A stretch of DNA of 50,459 bases, from contig CAJCIN010000283.1 of the NCBI GenBank assembly GCA_903970385.1, positions 1 through 50,459 on the forward strand, read 5' to 3'. The stretch comes from Rhodospirillales bacterium (GTDB taxonomy: Bacteria; Vulcanimicrobiota; Vulcanimicrobiia; Vulcanimicrobiales; Vulcanimicrobiaceae). Below, piece after piece: positions 15,838 to 24,050 of this stretch. A program made the position numbers and the translations under genes. The stretch's first letter is position 1. Each line of letters starts with the position of its first letter. The notes below the pieces were generated by a model. It had not been told where the DNA came from and did not search any database. It saw only the letters and a program-made list of their open reading frames with translations.

Positions 15838-16359
15838 ATGTTGGAGCGGAGCGTCGTTGCGGTTGAAGGTGCGGTCCTCGGATTGTGGGCGGGGGCGATG
15901 GCGGGCTTCGCCTTCGTGTTCGCGCCGATCGCTTTCAGGACCGTTCCCGACATGGGCACGTTCTCGGCGCTGATCGGCGCCTTCATTCGCGGGCTCGCGC
16001 CGTTCGGAAACGTCTGCGGCGGCGTCGCGATCGCGGCCGCTCTCGTGCGCGCCGTCGCCCCGGAAGCGCGGGGTCTCGCCATCGGCCGGGTGGGACTCGT
16101 CGCGATCGGGCTCGTCGCGTCGGGCTACGAGACGGCCGTCATCGTCCCGCACATGGAGGCGACCGCCGCGCAGATCCCGGGCGCGATCGACACCGTTCCG
16201 AAAGACGATCCGCGGCGCGTCGCCTACGACGAAGAGCATCACCGCTCGACGCGCGTCTACGGCCTCGCTTTCCTCGCGGTGCTCGCGGCGGCGACGCTCG
16301 TGCCCTTCGGACGCCGGCGCTCCGGGCCGCCGAGCGGGGTTGACCCTGCCGAAGCGTGA
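15838..16359 (+). CDS. DUF4149-type integral membrane protein
   Basis: A 173-residue protein with four hydrophobic segments (about residues 8-35, 45-70, 80-105, 140-160). The AGAMAGFAFVFAPIAF start and the late DDPRRVAYDEEHHRSTRVYG block fit the DUF4149/TMEM205-like family of unknown function. Divergent from the inositol monophosphatase gene. The promoter of the following Mg2+-riboswitch operon overlaps its last codons, so the two are probably separate transcripts. Confidence 0.8.
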   Translation: MLERSVVAVEGAVLGLWAGAMAGFAFVFAPIAFRTVPDMGTFSALIGAFIRGLAPFGNVCGGVAIAAALVRAVAPEARGLAIGRVGLVAIGLVASGYETAVIVPHMEATAAQIPGAIDTVPKDDPRRVAYDEEHHRSTRVYGLAFLAVLAAATLVPFGRRRSGPPSGVDPAEA

Positions 16360-16369
16360 CCCGTATACT
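16340..16369 (+). promoter_or_regulatory. Sigma70-type promoter of the M-box operon
   Basis: TTGACC (16340-16345) and TATACT (16364-16369) are separated by 18 nt and match the consensus at 5 of 6 positions each. A start site about 7 nt further would place the 5' end at about 16376, immediately before the first riboswitch stem. It is the best promoter-like sequence I see in the window. The -35 box lies inside the last codons of the DUF4149 gene. Confidence 0.75.
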
Positions 16370-16379
16370 TGTCGCCAGG

Positions 16380-16546
16380 ACATCTCGATAGGTGAGGCGT
16401 CTGCGATACACATATGCCGCTGCCCCGAAACGTCGAAAGACGCCAAGTGGGTCGAACAGGTTCCGCCGACATAAGGCGGCGCTCAAAGCGGCTGACGAAC
16501 GTTCGTCTACGGTCCGCAGTGCCGAAACTCGAAGCGACTGAGATGT
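16380..16546 (+). ncRNA. M-box (ykoK) magnesium riboswitch aptamer
   Basis: The conserved core of the M-box class is readable by eye: GGTGAGGC (16391-16398), CATATGCCGCTGCC, AACGTCGAAAGACGCCAA, TGGGTCGAACAG, CGACATAAGG, and CAGTGCCGAAACTCGAAGCGA near the 3' end. The closing stem P1 pairs ACATCTC (16380-16386) with GAGATGT (16540-16546). In this class Mg2+ binding compacts the aptamer and switches off expression of Mg2+ uptake genes. Here it precedes an MgtE-like sensor and an NRAMP-type transporter, the expected kind of target. Confidence 0.92.
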
Positions 16547-16547
16547 A

Positions 16548-16608
16548 GCCGAGGCTCGCCCGAGCCCTCGGCTTCATGCCGGTCGCGCCGAAATGCGTCC
16601 GGCTTTTT
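16548..16608 (+). terminator. Riboswitch expression platform with intrinsic terminator
   Basis: Two hairpins follow the aptamer. The first (16548-16572) pairs GCCGAGG with CCTCGGC around an inner CTCG/CGAG. The second pairs GCCGG (16578-16582) with CCGGC (16599-16603), with an inner CGCG/TGCG stack, and is followed directly by TTTTT (16604-16608). The second is a standard rho-independent terminator 30 nt before the first gene. I infer that Mg2+ binding favours it; the competing antiterminator pairing was not worked out. Confidence 0.75.
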
Positions 16609-16637
16609 CGTGTCTCGGTCGAGGGAAGGCAGTCGAC

Positions 16638-17936
16638 ATGGCGTTCGCAGACGGCTACCTTTCGGATCTGATCGGTCGCCAGGCGGTGCTCGAAGGGCCC
16701 GCGCGACTTCCGGTTGGCCGCGTCGTCGATTTTTACGTCGGGAAGCCGGACGACACGTTTCCACGCATCGACGGAATCGTCGTACGTACGAAAGCCGGTC
16801 CGCTGCAGAGTTCGGTGAACGACGTCGTCGACATCGACGAGAACGGCGTGCTCGTGCTGCGCGTCGCGCCGAGCGAAACGCCCGCACCGGAAAACAGCGC
16901 GCTCTTCCTCGTCAAGGATCTCTTCGACAAGCAGATCGTCGACGTCGACGGCCGCAAGGTCGTGCGCATCAACGATCTCGAGATCGCGAACACGAGCGGG
17001 ACGCTGCGCGTCGTGGCCGCGGATATCGGCGTCGCGGGATTGTTGCGACGCCTCGGAGCGGGGCGGATCGCACCGCGCTTGCTCGATCGCGTTCCGCGCA
17101 ACATCATCGCATGGGACAACGTCGCGCCGATCTCCGACGTCAACCCGACGCAGGTGCAACTCTCCGTCTCCGAGTCGCGCCTCTCGCGCTTGCATCCCTC
17201 GGAGCTCGCGGACATCATCGGCGAACTCTCGGCGAAAGACGCGGCGCGCGTCGTCGGCGCGCTCGACGACGAAACGGCGGCCGACGCGTTCGAGCATCTC
17301 GATGCCGACGTCCAGCAGTCGATCATCGCCGACCTCGGCACGGATCGCGCTGCGGACATCATCGAGGAGATGGACTCCGACGACGCCGCCGACTTGCTCG
17401 GCGAACTCGACGAGGAACAGCGCACGGCGTTGCTCGCCAAGATCGAGGACCGCGAATACGCGGACGAGCTCGAGGAACTCGTCGAGTACGAGAGCGACAG
17501 CGCGGGCGGTCTCATGACGACGGACTACGTCTGGATCTATCCGCACCGCACGACGGAAGCGACGATCGGCAAGATCCGGCAGATCGCACCCGAGTCGGAA
17601 TTCATCTACTACCTGTACGTCACGGACGATCGTCGCAAATTACTCGGCACGATCTCGCTGCGGACGCTCTTGCTCTCGTTGCCGACGGCGTTCATCCACA
17701 TGCTGATGGACACGGACGTCGTCAGCGTCTCGGCCGATACGAGCGCGGAAGACGTCGCCTCGGCGATCGCCCGTTACGATCTGCTCGCCGTCCCCGTTCT
17801 CGACGACGAAGGCTGCATGCTCGGGATCGTGACGGTCGACGACGCGATCGACGCGATCATTCCCGCGAAGATCGCCAACTCGCTCCCCCGGTTCATCCGG
17901 CATCACGGGAAAAGGCCGCGCGTTGGAGCGCCTTAA
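16638..17936 (+). CDS. Soluble PRC-barrel/MgtE_N/CBS-pair protein without a channel domain
   Basis: A 432-residue cytoplasmic protein. Residues 5-75 and about 90-160 look like PRC-barrel-type beta domains (VGRVVDFYVG; VDVDGRKVVRINDLEI). Residues about 184-285 are the acidic helical MgtE N domain with repeats such as LHPSELADIIGEL and DDAADLLGEL, followed by the MgtE signature DSAGGLMTTDYV (287-298). A CBS pair spans about 293-410. It stops where MgtE would enter its plug helix and membrane domain, and no hydrophobic segment is present. ATG at 16638 has GGGAAGG upstream; an upstream ATG at 16593 lies in the terminator. The stop overlaps the NRAMP-like gene by 14 nt. I infer a Mg2+ sensor for that transporter. 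Confidence 0.9.
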   Translation: MAFADGYLSDLIGRQAVLEGPARLPVGRVVDFYVGKPDDTFPRIDGIVVRTKAGPLQSSVNDVVDIDENGVLVLRVAPSETPAPENSALFLVKDLFDKQIVDVDGRKVVRINDLEIANTSGTLRVVAADIGVAGLLRRLGAGRIAPRLLDRVPRNIIAWDNVAPISDVNPTQVQLSVSESRLSRLHPSELADIIGELSAKDAARVVGALDDETAADAFEHLDADVQQSIIADLGTDRAADIIEEMDSDDAADLLGELDEEQRTALLAKIEDREYADELEELVEYESDSAGGLMTTDYVWIYPHRTTEATIGKIRQIAPESEFIYYLYVTDDRRKLLGTISLRTLLLSLPTAFIHMLMDTDVVSVSADTSAEDVASAIARYDLLAVPVLDDEGCMLGIVTVDDAIDAIIPAKIANSLPRFIRHHGKRPRVGAP

Positions 17937-19209
17937 GAGCTCGCGCTTCTGGCGTAACGTTCTCTTCGTCGTTTCGGTGCTCGGGCCGGGGTTCATCACC
18001 GCGTCCGCCGGCAACGACGTCGGCGGCATCTTCACCTATTCCGTCGCAGGCGCGCAATTCGGCTACTCGGTCATTTGGCCACTGATCCCGATCGCGGTCT
18101 CGCTCATCGTCGTGCAAGAGATGGCGGCGCGCATGGGCGCGGTGACGGGCAAGGGGCTCGCCGCGCTGATCCGTGAGGAGTTCGGCGTCTGGATCGCGCT
18201 GCTGACGATGATCGGGCTCTTCTTCATGAACACGTTCACGACGTCGGCCGAGTTCGCCGGCATCGCGTCGGCGAGCGAGATCTTCGGCGTATCGCGCTAC
18301 GTCGCCGTGCCCGCCTGCGTCATCCTCGTGTTCGCGTTCGTCCTGCGCATCAGCGCGAGTCTGGTCGAGCGCGTGTTCGTCGTCTTGTCGCTCGTGTACG
18401 TCACGTACATCATCTCGGGCTTTCTCGCGCATCCGGTGTGGAAAGACGTCGCCCGCGGCACGTTCGTGCCGTCGGTCGACACGCACGATCCCGCATATCT
18501 CGGCACGGTCGTCGCGTTGATCGGCACCACGATCTCACCGTACATGCAGTTCTACCTGCAATCGGCGATCGTGGAAAAGGGCACCCGGCCGAAGGGTCTG
18601 CTCGCGACGCGCATCGACGTCGCGAACGGGTCGATCCTCGCGATCATCGTGGCGGCGTTCATGATCATCGCGAACGCTGCGACGATCTACGTGTTCAACC
18701 AGCATCATGCGGCGCATCCGATCGTCGTGACGCAGGCATCCGACGTCGCGGTCGCCCTGCAACCGCTCGCCGGAAAGTTCGCGAGCGCGCTGTTCGCGTT
18801 CGGCATCCTCAACGCCGGCATCTTCGCGGCCGCCGTGCTTCCGCTCTCGACGAGCTACCTCGTCTGCGAAGCGTTCGGCTTCGAAGCCGCGCTCGATCGC
18901 CGTTTCAGCGAGGCGCCCGTCTTCTTCACGCTCTTCGCGGCCGGTCTCATCGCCGGTGCGGCGCTCGTGCTCATCCCCGGCATTCCGCTCGTTCCGCTCG
19001 CCATCGCATCGCAGGTCGTGCAAGGCCTCCTGCTTCCGCTCGAACTCGTGCTGATGCTCGTGATCATCAACCGCGTTCGCGTGATGGGGGTGTATCGGAA
19101 CACGCGCTCCGCGAACGCGATCTCGTGGGCCACCGTCGTCATCGTCGGCGTCATCGCGCTGTACTACACGTACACGCAGATCGCCGGACTGTTCGTCCAC
19201 GCGCCGTAG
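17923..19209 (+). CDS. NRAMP-family (SLC11-like) divalent metal transporter, possibly Mg2+-type
   Basis: A polytopic membrane protein, 428 aa with about eleven helices, starting at TTG 17923 inside the end of the preceding gene. The first helix has the NRAMP landmark GPGFITAS, but the canonical DPGN metal motif is replaced by NDVGG (31-35). On helix 6 the usual MPH is replaced by TTISPYMQ (202-209). These positions coordinate Mn2+/Fe2+ in classical NRAMP proteins. A branch called NRMT, described as transporting Mg2+, also departs from those motifs. The Mg2+ riboswitch upstream supports Mg2+ as substrate; Mn2+ cannot be excluded. Confidence 0.88.
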   Translation: MERLKSSRFWRNVLFVVSVLGPGFITASAGNDVGGIFTYSVAGAQFGYSVIWPLIPIAVSLIVVQEMAARMGAVTGKGLAALIREEFGVWIALLTMIGLFFMNTFTTSAEFAGIASASEIFGVSRYVAVPACVILVFAFVLRISASLVERVFVVLSLVYVTYIISGFLAHPVWKDVARGTFVPSVDTHDPAYLGTVVALIGTTISPYMQFYLQSAIVEKGTRPKGLLATRIDVANGSILAIIVAAFMIIANAATIYVFNQHHAAHPIVVTQASDVAVALQPLAGKFASALFAFGILNAGIFAAAVLPLSTSYLVCEAFGFEAALDRRFSEAPVFFTLFAAGLIAGAALVLIPGIPLVPLAIASQVVQGLLLPLELVLMLVIINRVRVMGVYRNTRSANAISWATVVIVGVIALYYTYTQIAGLFVHAP

Positions 19210-19213
19210 CCGC

Positions 19214-21136
19214 ATGCATCGCACCGTTCGTCTCCGGTACGCGTCCCTCGCGCTCGCGGCGTCGATCTTTGCGGCGCCGGCCGGACGCGCGAGCGCGCAA
19301 GCGCCCGCCGCGCAACCGTCCGCGGCCGCATCTCCGAGCGCGTCCGCCACGCCGCGACCGCTCGGCTTGCACGCGTCGCTCGACGCGTCGCTCACCTCGA
19401 TCGATCAATCGACGCGCGGCCCGGGGCAGATCGGACCCGAGGCGTCCGGCTTCATCGCGGGTGCGCCGCTCGCACCGAATACGCCGTACGATTTCTTCTC
19501 GAGCGCGCCGCAAACGCCGGGCGTCGCCGGCATCGGTCAGGCGATCGCGACGGCCGCATACGGGTTCCGAACGTTCGACGCGACGATCACCGGCGGCTTC
19601 GGCGACGTCGACGGCAGCGTCACGAACGCGGCATACTGGGGCGAGTCGCTCTTTCCGGCGCTGAATCCACATCTCGGCGCGCAGGCGTTGCCGTACCGGA
19701 TCGCATTTCCGGCGCACGCGGGCGAAGACGACGGGCGCACGTTCCGCGCGTCGCTGCTCGGCGCGACGCTCGCGAGCGCGGACGGCAACGTGCGCGTGCG
19801 CGGCGGCTACTTCGATCTCGCGCAGACCGATCGTTTCGCGTTCGCGCAGCCGGCGCTGACGAGCGTGAATCCCGCGATCGGCTTCGCGACGCCGGAGACG
19901 CTCGGCAACGGCGCGCCGGCTCTCGACGATTGGAGCCCGGTCGCGACGCAGTTGCCGCTCGACGGATTCGACCTCGTCGCGAAGCGCGGCGACGGCACGC
20001 TCGAAGTGACGACCGCCGCGTTGCCGTCGCTGCCCGGCGAATCCGCGCGGCTCGACATGGGTTCGCTCGTGTCCGATCGCGGCGAGGGAACGCGGTTCTC
20101 GGCCGACCTCGTGCACGTCGCCACGAGCGGCCTGCCGTTCGTCACGACCGTGCCGTTCGGTGCGGACCCGACGTACGACGTGACGCCGCAAGGCGTCTTG
20201 CCGACGAGCACGCTCGACGGACAGCGGCAGACGATCGCGGCCGGTCGCGGTGCGTTTCATATTTCGACGGCATACGCGCTCGACGGCACGGTCGAGATCG
20301 GGCGCACGTGGTACGACGCGAGCGACCCCGCGCGCCCCGGTACGGCGCGGCCCGGCGGCTACTATCACGCCGGACTGACGAAGACGAAGGGTCGCGTCAC
20401 GGCATCGCTCGACGTCTACCGGATGGAGGCGAGGTACGCGCCGATCATCTTGCCGTACGGCGTGCCGGAGAATCAGTGGAGCGCCGCGTTCGCGTGGCCG
20501 GGCCAGTGGCTCAAATCCAACTATCAATCGATCGACAACACCGTGCTCGGCGTCAATCGCCAGGGCTATCGCCTACGCTACTTCGTCGACAAGGGTCCGC
20601 TCGAGGTTCATCTCGAGTACGTCGACCTGCGTCAGATTTCGCCCGAGACGACCGCGACGGCGGAACAGACCGGCTTCGTCGACGGCTACTACTTGCCGCA
20701 GGCGCCGGCCGCCGCGACGTTCGGGCGGCAGCGGCGGTACGGCTTCTGGGCGGCGTGGCATCCGGCGTTCGGCGATGTGACGCTCGACGTCGTCGACGAT
20801 ACGCTGAACCGCCCGACGGGCGCCGGGCATCCGCTCGACGGCGTGTCGTACGAGGTCCCGCAGGCGATACTCACCGTCGACCGCCGCGTCTCGCCGAACG
20901 TGATCGCCTCCATGGGTCTCGGGCGCTACGCGATGGACGGCCGCTTCTCGGAGCCGATCGATTTCGCGGAGCGATCGTTCGTCGCGGGCGCCGAAGTTCG
21001 CGAAACGTCGCGCGCATCGGTGCTCGTGAGTTTTCGCCGGAGCGCCTTCGCGGGCGTCTCGACCTTCCCGGCTGCGGGCACGTCCCCGGATTTCACGGGA
21101 TCGCTCCTCGTGATCGAGCAGCGCCTGCACCTCTGA
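19214..21136 (+). CDS. Secreted beta-rich protein, possible outer-membrane barrel (640 aa)
   Basis: It starts 4 nt after the NRAMP-like stop and so is likely in the M-box operon. The N-terminus is a signal peptide with cleavage near RASAQ (about residue 29), then an Ala/Pro/Ser-rich linker to about residue 55. The rest alternates short beta strands and Gly/Asp/Asn turns, with no long helix: for example VRVRGGYFDLAQTD, YRLRYFVDKG and RYGFWAAWHPAFGDVTLDVV. The last strand ends RLHL. This composition suits an outer-membrane beta barrel, though the C-terminus lacks the usual aromatic. I recognise no family; a porin-like role in metal entry is inference from the operon. Confidence 0.75.
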   Translation: MHRTVRLRYASLALAASIFAAPAGRASAQAPAAQPSAAASPSASATPRPLGLHASLDASLTSIDQSTRGPGQIGPEASGFIAGAPLAPNTPYDFFSSAPQTPGVAGIGQAIATAAYGFRTFDATITGGFGDVDGSVTNAAYWGESLFPALNPHLGAQALPYRIAFPAHAGEDDGRTFRASLLGATLASADGNVRVRGGYFDLAQTDRFAFAQPALTSVNPAIGFATPETLGNGAPALDDWSPVATQLPLDGFDLVAKRGDGTLEVTTAALPSLPGESARLDMGSLVSDRGEGTRFSADLVHVATSGLPFVTTVPFGADPTYDVTPQGVLPTSTLDGQRQTIAAGRGAFHISTAYALDGTVEIGRTWYDASDPARPGTARPGGYYHAGLTKTKGRVTASLDVYRMEARYAPIILPYGVPENQWSAAFAWPGQWLKSNYQSIDNTVLGVNRQGYRLRYFVDKGPLEVHLEYVDLRQISPETTATAEQTGFVDGYYLPQAPAAATFGRQRRYGFWAAWHPAFGDVTLDVVDDTLNRPTGAGHPLDGVSYEVPQAILTVDRRVSPNVIASMGLGRYAMDGRFSEPIDFAERSFVAGAEVRETSRASVLVSFRRSAFAGVSTFPAAGTSPDFTGSLLVIEQRLHL

Positions 21137-21505: not shown

Positions 21506-22729
21506 GTGATCGATAGCGCCGTCATGTCGAACGACGAACTCGTCGAATTCGCCGAAGGGCTCGCCCGCGTCGCGAGCACGGGCGGCGGCCCGAAGGCGCT
21601 CGCCGCGCATCTCGGCACGCTGCTCGACGCCGCGGTCCTCGTCGAAGATGCCGAATGGCGTCACGTCGCGCTCGCGGGCGCGGCGAAACGCTCCGTCCCG
21701 CCGTCCAGCCGCGATCTGATTTCCGCCGCTCCGAAAGACGGCGAGGGCGCGGTCGCGCTGCAGACGCCCGGCGACGCCGCCGGCGGCGTCGCGGTGCGCA
21801 TCCGCGGCGGCGACTCGCCGCTCGGCTGGCTTTCCGTGTTCCCGAACGGCAGCGGCGCCGAGGGCCGGCTCGCGGCCGTGCGGCTCGCAGCCGCCGCGAT
21901 CGCGGTCGAACTCTCACGCGACGCGGGCGGCGGTCGCAATCGCCGCAAATCGTTTTGGGACCGTTTGATCTCGCGCGCGTACGACGATCCGATCGAAGCG
22001 AAGGACGATGCGACGGCCCGCGGCATCTCGCTCGCGGCGAGCTACGTCGCGGTCGCGATCGAAGCCGAGGGGCTCGAAGAGACGGTCGCGGCAACGAAGA
22101 TGGGCGACCTGCGACGCATCTGTCTCGAAACGCTCCGCTCGGGTTCGGGCGATATCGTCGTCCTCGAACGCGGCGGCGGCTTCGTGTTTCTCTGCCCCGC
22201 GCCGATGGAGGTCGACGCCGCGAACGCGCGCACGGCCGCGACGCTGATCGCGCGCACCGCGACGAAGAATCACTTCGGCGCGAAGATCGTCGGCGGCGTC
22301 GGCCGCCCGGCGGAAGCGATCGCGGCGCACCGTACGGTCGAGGAAGCGCGCGAATCGATGTTCATCGCGCGGCGCCTCTTCGGCGGTTCGCGCGTGATGC
22401 CGTACGAAGATCTCGGCGTCTACCCGATGCTCTTGCGCGGCGGCGCGACGTCCGCCGAACTGCGCGAGGTGTCCGACCGTATCCTCGCGCCGTTACGCGC
22501 GTACGACGAAAAGCACCAGACCGAATTGATTCGCACGCTGCGCCTCTATTTCGACGTCGGGCAGAACGTGAAGACCGCCGCAGCCGAGCTCTCGGTACAC
22601 CGGCATACCGTGTTCTACCGCTTGCGTCAGATCGCCGAGATCAGCGGTCACGATCTCGATTCGGCTCACGATCAACTCACTCTGCGAACGGCGATGGCGA
22701 TCGATGCACTCAACTCTCACGAACGGTAA
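21506..22729 (+). CDS. PucR/CdaR-type transcriptional regulator
   Basis: A 407-residue protein with an N-terminal GAF-like region (about 1-130), a central GGDEF-like/CdaR domain and a C-terminal helix-turn-helix at about residues 345-400. The HTH (NVKTAAAELSVHRHTVFYRLRQIAEISG) is the signature of the PucR family, which controls use of purines, sugar acids, amines and aromatics. I use GTG at 21506, which has AGGG 9 nt upstream; ATG at 21524 is possible. Its 3' end overlaps the glutamine-synthetase-like gene by 26 nt, making that gene and the ones after it likely targets. Confidence 0.88.
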   Translation: MIDSAVMSNDELVEFAEGLARVASTGGGPKALAAHLGTLLDAAVLVEDAEWRHVALAGAAKRSVPPSSRDLISAAPKDGEGAVALQTPGDAAGGVAVRIRGGDSPLGWLSVFPNGSGAEGRLAAVRLAAAAIAVELSRDAGGGRNRRKSFWDRLISRAYDDPIEAKDDATARGISLAASYVAVAIEAEGLEETVAATKMGDLRRICLETLRSGSGDIVVLERGGGFVFLCPAPMEVDAANARTAATLIARTATKNHFGAKIVGGVGRPAEAIAAHRTVEEARESMFIARRLFGGSRVMPYEDLGVYPMLLRGGATSAELREVSDRILAPLRAYDEKHQTELIRTLRLYFDVGQNVKTAAAELSVHRHTVFYRLRQIAEISGHDLDSAHDQLTLRTAMAIDALNSHER

Positions 22730-24050
22730 GGCGATCAACAAACGCGACGTGCTGCGGCTCGCGAAAGAACGCGACGTCCGCTTCGTGCGCCTGTCGTTCG
22801 TCGACATCCTCGGCATCAACAAGAGCGTGTCGATCCCCGTCGCCGAACTCGAGCGTGCGATCGAAGGCCGCGTCACGTTCGACGGCGGATCGATCGACGG
22901 TTTCGTGCGCGGCGAGGAAGCCGACATGCGGCTGTTGCCGGATCTCGCGACGTTCGCCGTCTACCCCTGGACGAACGGCGGCCACAACGAGGCGCGTCTC
23001 ATCTGCAATATCGCGACGGCGGACGGCGAGCCGTTCGAGGGCTGTCCGCGGACGACGCTGATGCGGGCGATCGACGATGCGGCGGACGTCGCGACGGGCT
23101 TGCAGAGCGGTCTCGAAGTCGAATTCTATCTCTTCGACGTCGGCCCGGGCGGCGCGCCGACCACCGCATCGAACGACGTCGGATCGTATTTCGACATCAA
23201 CGAGAGCGACCGCGGCGAGCTCGCGCGCACGGAGATCGTGACGGCCCTCGAAGCGATGGGACTCGGCGTCGCGAGCTCGCATCACGAACACGGCGCGGGT
23301 CAGCACGAGATCGATCTGCGCGAGACGGGGCTGCTCGCGGCATCCGACGCGCTGATCACGCTGCGCACCGTCGCGAAACACGTCGCCGCGCGGCACGGGC
23401 TCCACGCGACGTTCATGCCGAAACCGGCCGAGCACCTCGCAGGTAGCGGCGTGCACGTGTACTTCGCGTTTCCGCGCGACGCCGCGGAGGGCGAGGACGT
23501 CGAGGACGACGACCTCGGCGAGAACGCGCTCTTCGCGATCGGCGGTTTGCTCGAACACGCGCCGGCCTTCACGGCGATCTGCAACCCGACCGTCAACTCC
23601 TACAAGCGGCTCGTCGCCGCGTGGGACGCACCGATCTACACCGTCTGGTCGCACCGCAGCGCGAACTCGCTCGTGCGCGTTCCGTCGCCCGAGGACGCGC
23701 GTTCGCGCATTGAGGTCCGCAGCGCCGACCCCTCGTGCAACCCGTATCTCGCGATGTCGGTGCTGCTCGCGAGCGCGGCGCACGGCATCCGTTCGCACGC
23801 GCTGCCGGGCGATCCGTTGACGGGTTCGACGTACGAACTCAACGATCGCGAGCGCGATCGCCGGCGCATCAAGACGCTGCCGAAGTCGCTGCGCCAGGCA
23901 CTCGTCGAACTCGAGAAAGACGTCGTCGTCCGCGCCGCACTCGGCGACCACATCTACCTCGCGTTCCGCGACGCGAAGGTCGCCGAATACGAACGCTATC
24001 GCCGTGCCGTCCACCCCTGGGAGCGCGAAGCGTATCTGCGCGTCTACTGA
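22704..24050 (+). CDS. Glutamine-synthetase family ligase (GlnA-like)
   Basis: A 448-residue member of the glutamine synthetase family, which makes glutamine or gamma-glutamyl amides from glutamate, ATP and an amine. Visible are FDGGSIDGF near residue 60, the metal-site EVEFYLFD, EHGAGQHEIDL, GSGVHVYF and NPTVNSYKRLV, in family order. GSGVHVYF deviates from the usual GSGMHxHxS. ATG at 22704 lies inside the PucR gene, so translation is probably coupled. Being directly behind a PucR regulator and before a ketoacid decarboxylase, it may be a gamma-glutamyl-amine ligase rather than the housekeeping enzyme; the sequence alone does not settle this. Confidence 0.88.
   Translation: MHSTLTNGKAINKRDVLRLAKERDVRFVRLSFVDILGINKSVSIPVAELERAIEGRVTFDGGSIDGFVRGEEADMRLLPDLATFAVYPWTNGGHNEARLICNIATADGEPFEGCPRTTLMRAIDDAADVATGLQSGLEVEFYLFDVGPGGAPTTASNDVGSYFDINESDRGELARTEIVTALEAMGLGVASSHHEHGAGQHEIDLRETGLLAASDALITLRTVAKHVAARHGLHATFMPKPAEHLAGSGVHVYFAFPRDAAEGEDVEDDDLGENALFAIGGLLEHAPAFTAICNPTVNSYKRLVAAWDAPIYTVWSHRSANSLVRVPSPEDARSRIEVRSADPSCNPYLAMSVLLASAAHGIRSHALPGDPLTGSTYELNDRERDRRRIKTLPKSLRQALVELEKDVVVRAALGDHIYLAFRDAKVAEYERYRRAVHPWEREAYLRVY

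Follow-up and report, generated by a model that had tools for sequence, protein, structure and literature searches.

An M-box operon of a candidate Eremiobacterota bacterium joins a channel-less MgtE-type sensor, an NRAMP-related transporter and a predicted outer-membrane protein

The window, by which we mean the whole 50,459-nucleotide stretch of DNA analysed here (contig CAJCIN010000283.1 of assembly GCA_903970385.1), comes from a soil bacterium of the candidate phylum Eremiobacterota, whose assembly comprises 3.26 Mb in 312 contigs. Our subject is one unit within it, in which a promoter, an M-box riboswitch and a terminator are followed by three tightly spaced genes that encode a sensor protein, a transporter related to NRAMP and a protein that is probably secreted:

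16340..16369, + strand: sigma-70-like promoter TTGACC-18-TATACT, 10 of 12 matches
16377..16549, + strand: complete M-box Mg2+ riboswitch aptamer (RF00380), 119.6 bits, E 2.8e-26
16578..16608, + strand: the riboswitch's intrinsic terminator, made up of a hairpin (16578-16603) and TTTTT (16604-16608), an arrangement common to most of the related M-box leaders compared
16638..17936, + strand: sensor gene (start corrected from 16593), encoding two beta-rich, possibly PRC-like N-terminal domains, an MgtE N domain, a CBS pair and a short conserved tail, without plug helix or channel
17923..19209, + strand: NRAMP-related Mg2+ transporter (NRMT/NrmT type; transport predicted) with motifs DVGG and TTIS, overlapping the sensor gene by 14 nucleotides
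19214..21136, + strand: probably secreted protein, predicted to lie in the outer membrane, whose uncharacterised family has links to M-box and NRAMP; begins after a gap of 4 nucleotides to the NRAMP gene

An earlier reading of the letters alone (the sequence-only reading) had proposed this layout, including the overlap and the gap, and the analysis confirms it. The RF00380 match covers the full aptamer (model positions 1-169) and lies far above the gathering cut-off of 44 bits. A scan for promoter-like patterns found one, with 0.5 expected by chance. The terminator hairpin folds with -16.1 kcal/mol; a simple terminator scan of the window did not pick it up because its stem holds an internal mismatch. 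A T-run lies some 49-69 nucleotides 3' of the aptamer in 17 of the 20 M-box leaders compared (the window included), so the terminator in the window is more than a chance pattern.

The first gene encodes a protein with the cytosolic part of MgtE (MgtE_N, E 3.3e-25; CBS, E 5.5e-17, both in Pfam) and no channel. The start chosen by the open reading frame caller, 16593, falls inside the terminator, and relatives begin at the ATG at 16638, which gives a product of 432 amino acids. This product matches the cytosolic domain of TtMgtE with E 5e-38 and is 36% identical to the MgtE cytosolic domain. A structural model built from 46 sequences has a mean predicted local distance difference test score (pLDDT) of 83.8, and its best structural match is the crystal structure of the Mg2+-bound MgtE cytosolic domain (template-modelling score 0.85 by target length, 2.1 A). 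Aspartate occupies the positions aligned with TtMgtE D91, D95 and D247 in all 46 sensor sequences, and those aligned with D226, D250 and E59 (the last as Asp) are nearly invariant; all six are taken here to be Mg2+ ligands. Y170 and R187, for which PMC5529423 gives ATP contacts, are also retained. Soon after the second CBS domain, where MgtE has its plug helix and channel, the sensor ends in a conserved LPRF-like tail, and a search for a hidden MgtE channel domain (PF01769), in another frame or elsewhere in the genome, found none. Gene 1 is therefore not an MgtE: it shares with that Mg2+ channel the N domain, the CBS pair and the conserved acidic interface residues, but is a separate soluble protein without plug helix or transmembrane channel domain, as the sequence-only reading had held. 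That reading had also put PRC-barrel-like domains at the front of the protein; the N-terminal domains are indeed beta-rich in the model, although the single Pfam PRC match stays below the cut-off (E 0.035; 14.5 against 21.2 bits), so that a PRC-barrel-like character is plausible.

The second gene encodes an NRAMP-fold protein (Pfam Nramp, E 4.7e-85) whose metal motifs have changed, in agreement with the earlier claim. Its best relative of known structure is EleNRMT, a Mg2+ transporter of the SLC11 family (7qia; E 4.4e-101, against 5.6e-22 for MntH structures); aligned sequence identity is 46% with EleNRMT and 26% with DraNramp. The protein has lost the canonical Mn2+ motif (DPGN, MPH), and its transmembrane helices 1 and 6 (TM1 and TM6) carry DVGG and TTIS. 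The published NRMT motif is DxxG-TxxA/T (PMC8806188): DVGG matches DxxG, as opposed to DPGN, and in TM6, where NRMTs have TxxA/T in place of AxxM, the leading T matches and the final S deviates. The likeness to EleNRMT (PMC8806188) thus extends to overall identity, the TM1 motif and the first residue of the TM6 motif, but not to the last, and the function is predicted here. Given the kinship with EleNRMT and the loss of the Mn2+ motif, the transporter likely carries Mg2+. A further group of M-box-controlled NRAMP proteins (L092, L095, L102, L111 and L116) shows about 30% identity with EleNRMT and carries TTxA in TM6 and, where that part is covered, DAGA in TM1.

Channel-less sensors of this type were found at 80 loci, nearly all from candidate Eremiobacterota, and 77 of these have enough downstream sequence to be assessed. 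An NRAMP gene lies directly 3' of the sensor gene in 47 of the 77, including loci from Clostridia (Desulfosporosinus and Mahella; L084-L088). All 44 sensor-bearing genomes examined encode an NRAMP, and none of the 44 encodes an MgtE channel domain, in a search that was positive in 9 of 14 control genomes. CorA was found in 5 of the 20 genomes checked, the window's genome having one. With CorA missing from 15 of the 20 and the MgtE channel from all 44, these bacteria need a Mg2+ importer. An M-box lies directly upstream of the sensor gene in 24 of 33 NRAMP-linked loci, as against 2 of 16 unlinked ones (Fisher p 1.4e-4, an indicative value as related genomes are not independent). Where sensor and NRAMP are unlinked, the riboswitch usually goes with the transporter: it precedes a separate NRAMP gene in 12 of 15 such genomes. 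An M-box that tracks the transporter, and a sensor whose gene can lie elsewhere, fit a sensor acting in trans. Natural fusions of sensor and NRAMP were not seen among the sensor loci, the apparent long overlaps being open reading frames extended upstream. The genome comparison supports the idea that the pair is conserved.

The pair itself was already known. M-boxes ahead of Nramp-related genes were found by Shin et al. 2014 (PMC4072509), who named the genes NrmT and showed Mg2+ transport for a member from C. acetobutylicum. They also noted that most NrmT genes adjoin a gene homologous to the N-terminal cytoplasmic domain of MgtE ("mgtE-nramp operons", their Fig. S5), and left the role of the partial MgtE unexplained; our literature search found nothing on that role later than 2014. 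The suggestion that the three-gene arrangement was undescribed accordingly fails for the M-box, sensor and NRAMP, which those operons also combine in one unit. The unit in the window differs from them in its host, from a Gram-negative-type phylum whose examined genomes all lack the MgtE channel, in the extra beta-rich region at the N-terminus of its sensor, and in its third, probably secreted protein. New here are the genome-wide pattern, in which the sensor genomes all have NRAMP and none has an MgtE channel, and the uncharacterised third family, which stands repeatedly under M-box control in related bacteria.

The third protein has no relative in Pfam, NCBIfam, PHROG or the PDB, and no Pfam match, OprB included, was found in 24 members of its family; an assignment to a known porin family was dropped for this reason. 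Nor is it a fixed part of sensor loci: it is absent from the others, in flanks of up to 5 kb, and is an occasional addition to them. Its links to M-box and NRAMP appear only in a genome-wide search for the family, which is present in 28 of the 60 genomes searched (the window's genome included) and, from the combined searches, at 36 intact distinct loci plus one fragment. Thirteen of the 36 intact loci lie in an M-box unit, beside an NRAMP gene, or both, and 12 are in M-box units, the window among them. The order is M-box, NRAMP, third gene in G051, G076, G079, G085 and G007, and M-box, third gene, NRAMP in G035; at five loci (G080, G081, G094, G006 and G024) there is no NRAMP and the M-box lies immediately 5' of the third gene; and in G092 the third gene follows an NRAMP gene at the end of a contig. 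A simple model of random placement gives this association a chance below 1e-13, and on the family tree the association with M-boxes changes at least seven times. In another genome (G034), an OprB porin (PF04966, E 5.3e-28; L104:2614-3990, - strand) lies between the M-box and the NRMT gene.

Several features of the third protein fit an envelope location. Read by eye, the N-terminus resembles a signal peptide, and the C-terminus of the family is a conserved VEQRxx[F/L/I/Y] strand whose hydrophobic end may be a barrel trait; strand alternation is modestly above that of shuffled sequences (29 against 22 +/- 2.9). The window's genome encodes Omp85, and V. alpinus (Vulcanimicrobium alpinus), a cultivated member of the phylum, has an outer membrane covered with lipopolysaccharide (LPS; PMC9758169). 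In our best reading the protein is probably an outer-membrane entry protein for Mg2+. Envelope entry was a guess in the sequence-only reading, and now has comparative evidence behind it in the 13 of 36 loci and in the OprB porin that fills the same slot. Porins of the OprB type handle carbohydrates, and apart from that shared slot the window protein is unlike them in having no OprB match. The outer-membrane Mn2+ channel MnoP of Bradyrhizobium (PMC9334652) offers a parallel in that it provides outer-membrane entry for divalent metal uptake, as predicted for the window protein, but differs in substrate and regulation, with no sequence relation shown between the two. Four family members (L117, L121, L128 and L129) adjoin a gene for a NicO-like transporter, by one weak Pfam match, and the family may serve other metals too.

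Two conserved neighbours follow the M-box unit and lie outside it:

21506..22729, + strand: PucR-type regulator
22704..24050, + strand: glutamine synthetase-like gene

Together with the sensor gene they make up a block conserved in Eremiobacterota (window 21506-24050; L034, L037, L051, L054, L060 and L076). At 11 loci no NRAMP gene intervenes, and the sensor and PucR genes overlap.

We read the unit, with a probability of about 0.58, as an operon for Mg2+ uptake that is under feedback at two levels and probably brings its own entry protein for the outer membrane. By the known mechanism of M-boxes, high cytosolic Mg2+ would fold the aptamer, and the terminator at 16578-16608 would halt transcription; at low Mg2+ the sensor, the transporter and the third protein would be made. 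The NRMT-type transporter, like its known family, would move Mg2+ over the inner membrane, and the channel-less MgtE N-CBS protein would be a soluble Mg2+ sensor, perhaps also dependent on ATP. This sensor would most likely slow the transporter in trans as Mg2+ recovers, a step that, like the role of the third protein, we put less firmly than the riboswitch control and the import; control in trans is the best reading because the sensor keeps the acidic interface residues of MgtE. From its operon partners and sequence features, the third protein would most likely be an outer-membrane beta-barrel that admits Mg2+ or other divalent cations to the periplasm. More tentatively, it may found a family of outer-membrane channels, new for Gram-negative-type bacteria and regulated by magnesium, in an operon that would carry Mg2+ from the outside to the cytosol with feedback at the RNA level (the M-box) and at the protein level (an MgtE-derived sensor gating an NRAMP-fold transporter).

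A number of observations weigh against this reading, and some of them favour other explanations. About 40% of loci keep the sensor without an adjacent NRAMP gene, often with a PucR gene directly overlapped instead, and linkage changed state at least eight times on the sensor tree; the sensor may thus have another or an additional target. It could be a free CBS protein, responsive to Mg2+ or ATP, that gates no transporter and signals elsewhere, for instance to the adjacent PucR-type regulator and glutamine synthetase genes. The block sensor-X-PucR-glutamine synthetase is kept even without NRAMP, with the 11 PucR overlaps given above, and in B. subtilis the sensor of A. capsulatum (Acidobacterium capsulatum) did not improve Mg2+ rescue by its NrmT (PMC4072509). 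That pair, the only partner pair tested, has no M-box (PMC4072509). We nevertheless consider a free sensor rather unlikely: the pairing with NRAMP recurs in Clostridia, NRAMP is kept in every sensor genome, and M-box control tracks linkage to NRAMP and not to PucR. Within the sensor, two of the four ATP-site residues checked are altered (D188 to T, F227 to L), which also counts against the proposed mechanism.

The transporter might instead serve mainly Mn2+ or another transition metal, with the M-box as a general divalent-cation control. The A. capsulatum relative rescued Mn2+ uptake in B. subtilis (PMC4072509), and the window protein has TxxS in TM6 where the published NRMTs carry A or T; relatives of the same group carry S, A or T. 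Against this stand the loss of DPGN and MPH, the grouping with EleNRMT, the M-box that the window gene has and the A. capsulatum gene lacks, and the need for a Mg2+ importer set out above, the one CorA of the window's genome notwithstanding; we regard a Mn2+ transporter as improbable. For the third protein, many family members lie away from Mg2+ genes (23 of 36 loci are not near NRAMP or M-box), and a single-sequence AlphaFold prediction is meaningless (pLDDT 30.7), with no detectable relative of known structure to give a structural assignment. It could therefore belong to the envelope, have nothing to do with metal entry and share the transcript by chance. The repeated association, with its state changes on the family tree, the five M-boxes that directly precede only the third gene and the OprB porin in the same slot make such a coincidence unlikely.

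The leaders of related M-boxes hold a further element. Where no sensor lies directly downstream, they often contain a short open reading frame. It spans about 46-51 codons, comes with a ribosome-binding site, lies some 160-230 nucleotides 3' of the aptamer and has the motif H[DN]DxLRANQ...FSxWRALV. A six-frame search of 59 genomes gave 15 matches; at least 11 of them closely follow an M-box, one immediately precedes an NRAMP gene and one a third gene. Sites include L147 (G035:C16), L090 (G015:C118), L104 (G034:C154), L091 (G022:C157), L097 (G032:C27), L092, L095 and L153, with others in G072, G021 and G025. The product has no Pfam match and is absent from the window's genome; it is possibly an undescribed magnesium-regulated microprotein. 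The M-box leader of the pe20 operon of M. tuberculosis likewise holds a small conserved open reading frame, specific to mycobacteria (PMC12810186), and there as in the window the M-box precedes proteins implicated in Mg2+ uptake. The two systems differ in that the PE/PPE proteins belong to another family than the third protein, in that the window has an intrinsic terminator whereas pe20 is under translational or Rho control, and in that the Eremiobacterota small frame occurs in relatives of the window and not in the window itself.

A second M-box-sensor-NRAMP unit (L007, G000:C173) is present in the same assembly. Compared with the window, its sensor is 83% identical and its NRAMP only 51%, while the upstream genes align over 2.8 kb at 79%; it may have arisen by duplication and an exchange of the transporter, or this assembly may include a contig of a related organism with the same locus.

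The truncated MgtE beside NrmT has posed a question since 2014, and genomes without the MgtE channel, and mostly without CorA, make its role testable because the sensor there has no channel of its own kind to close. If the sensor does gate the NRAMP protein, a regulatory module of one transporter class would have been detached from it and put to work on an unrelated fold. The route usually assumed for Mg2+ through the outer membrane is that of general porins. If our reading of the third family holds, it would give Mg2+ a path of its own through an LPS outer membrane, under the control of a riboswitch.

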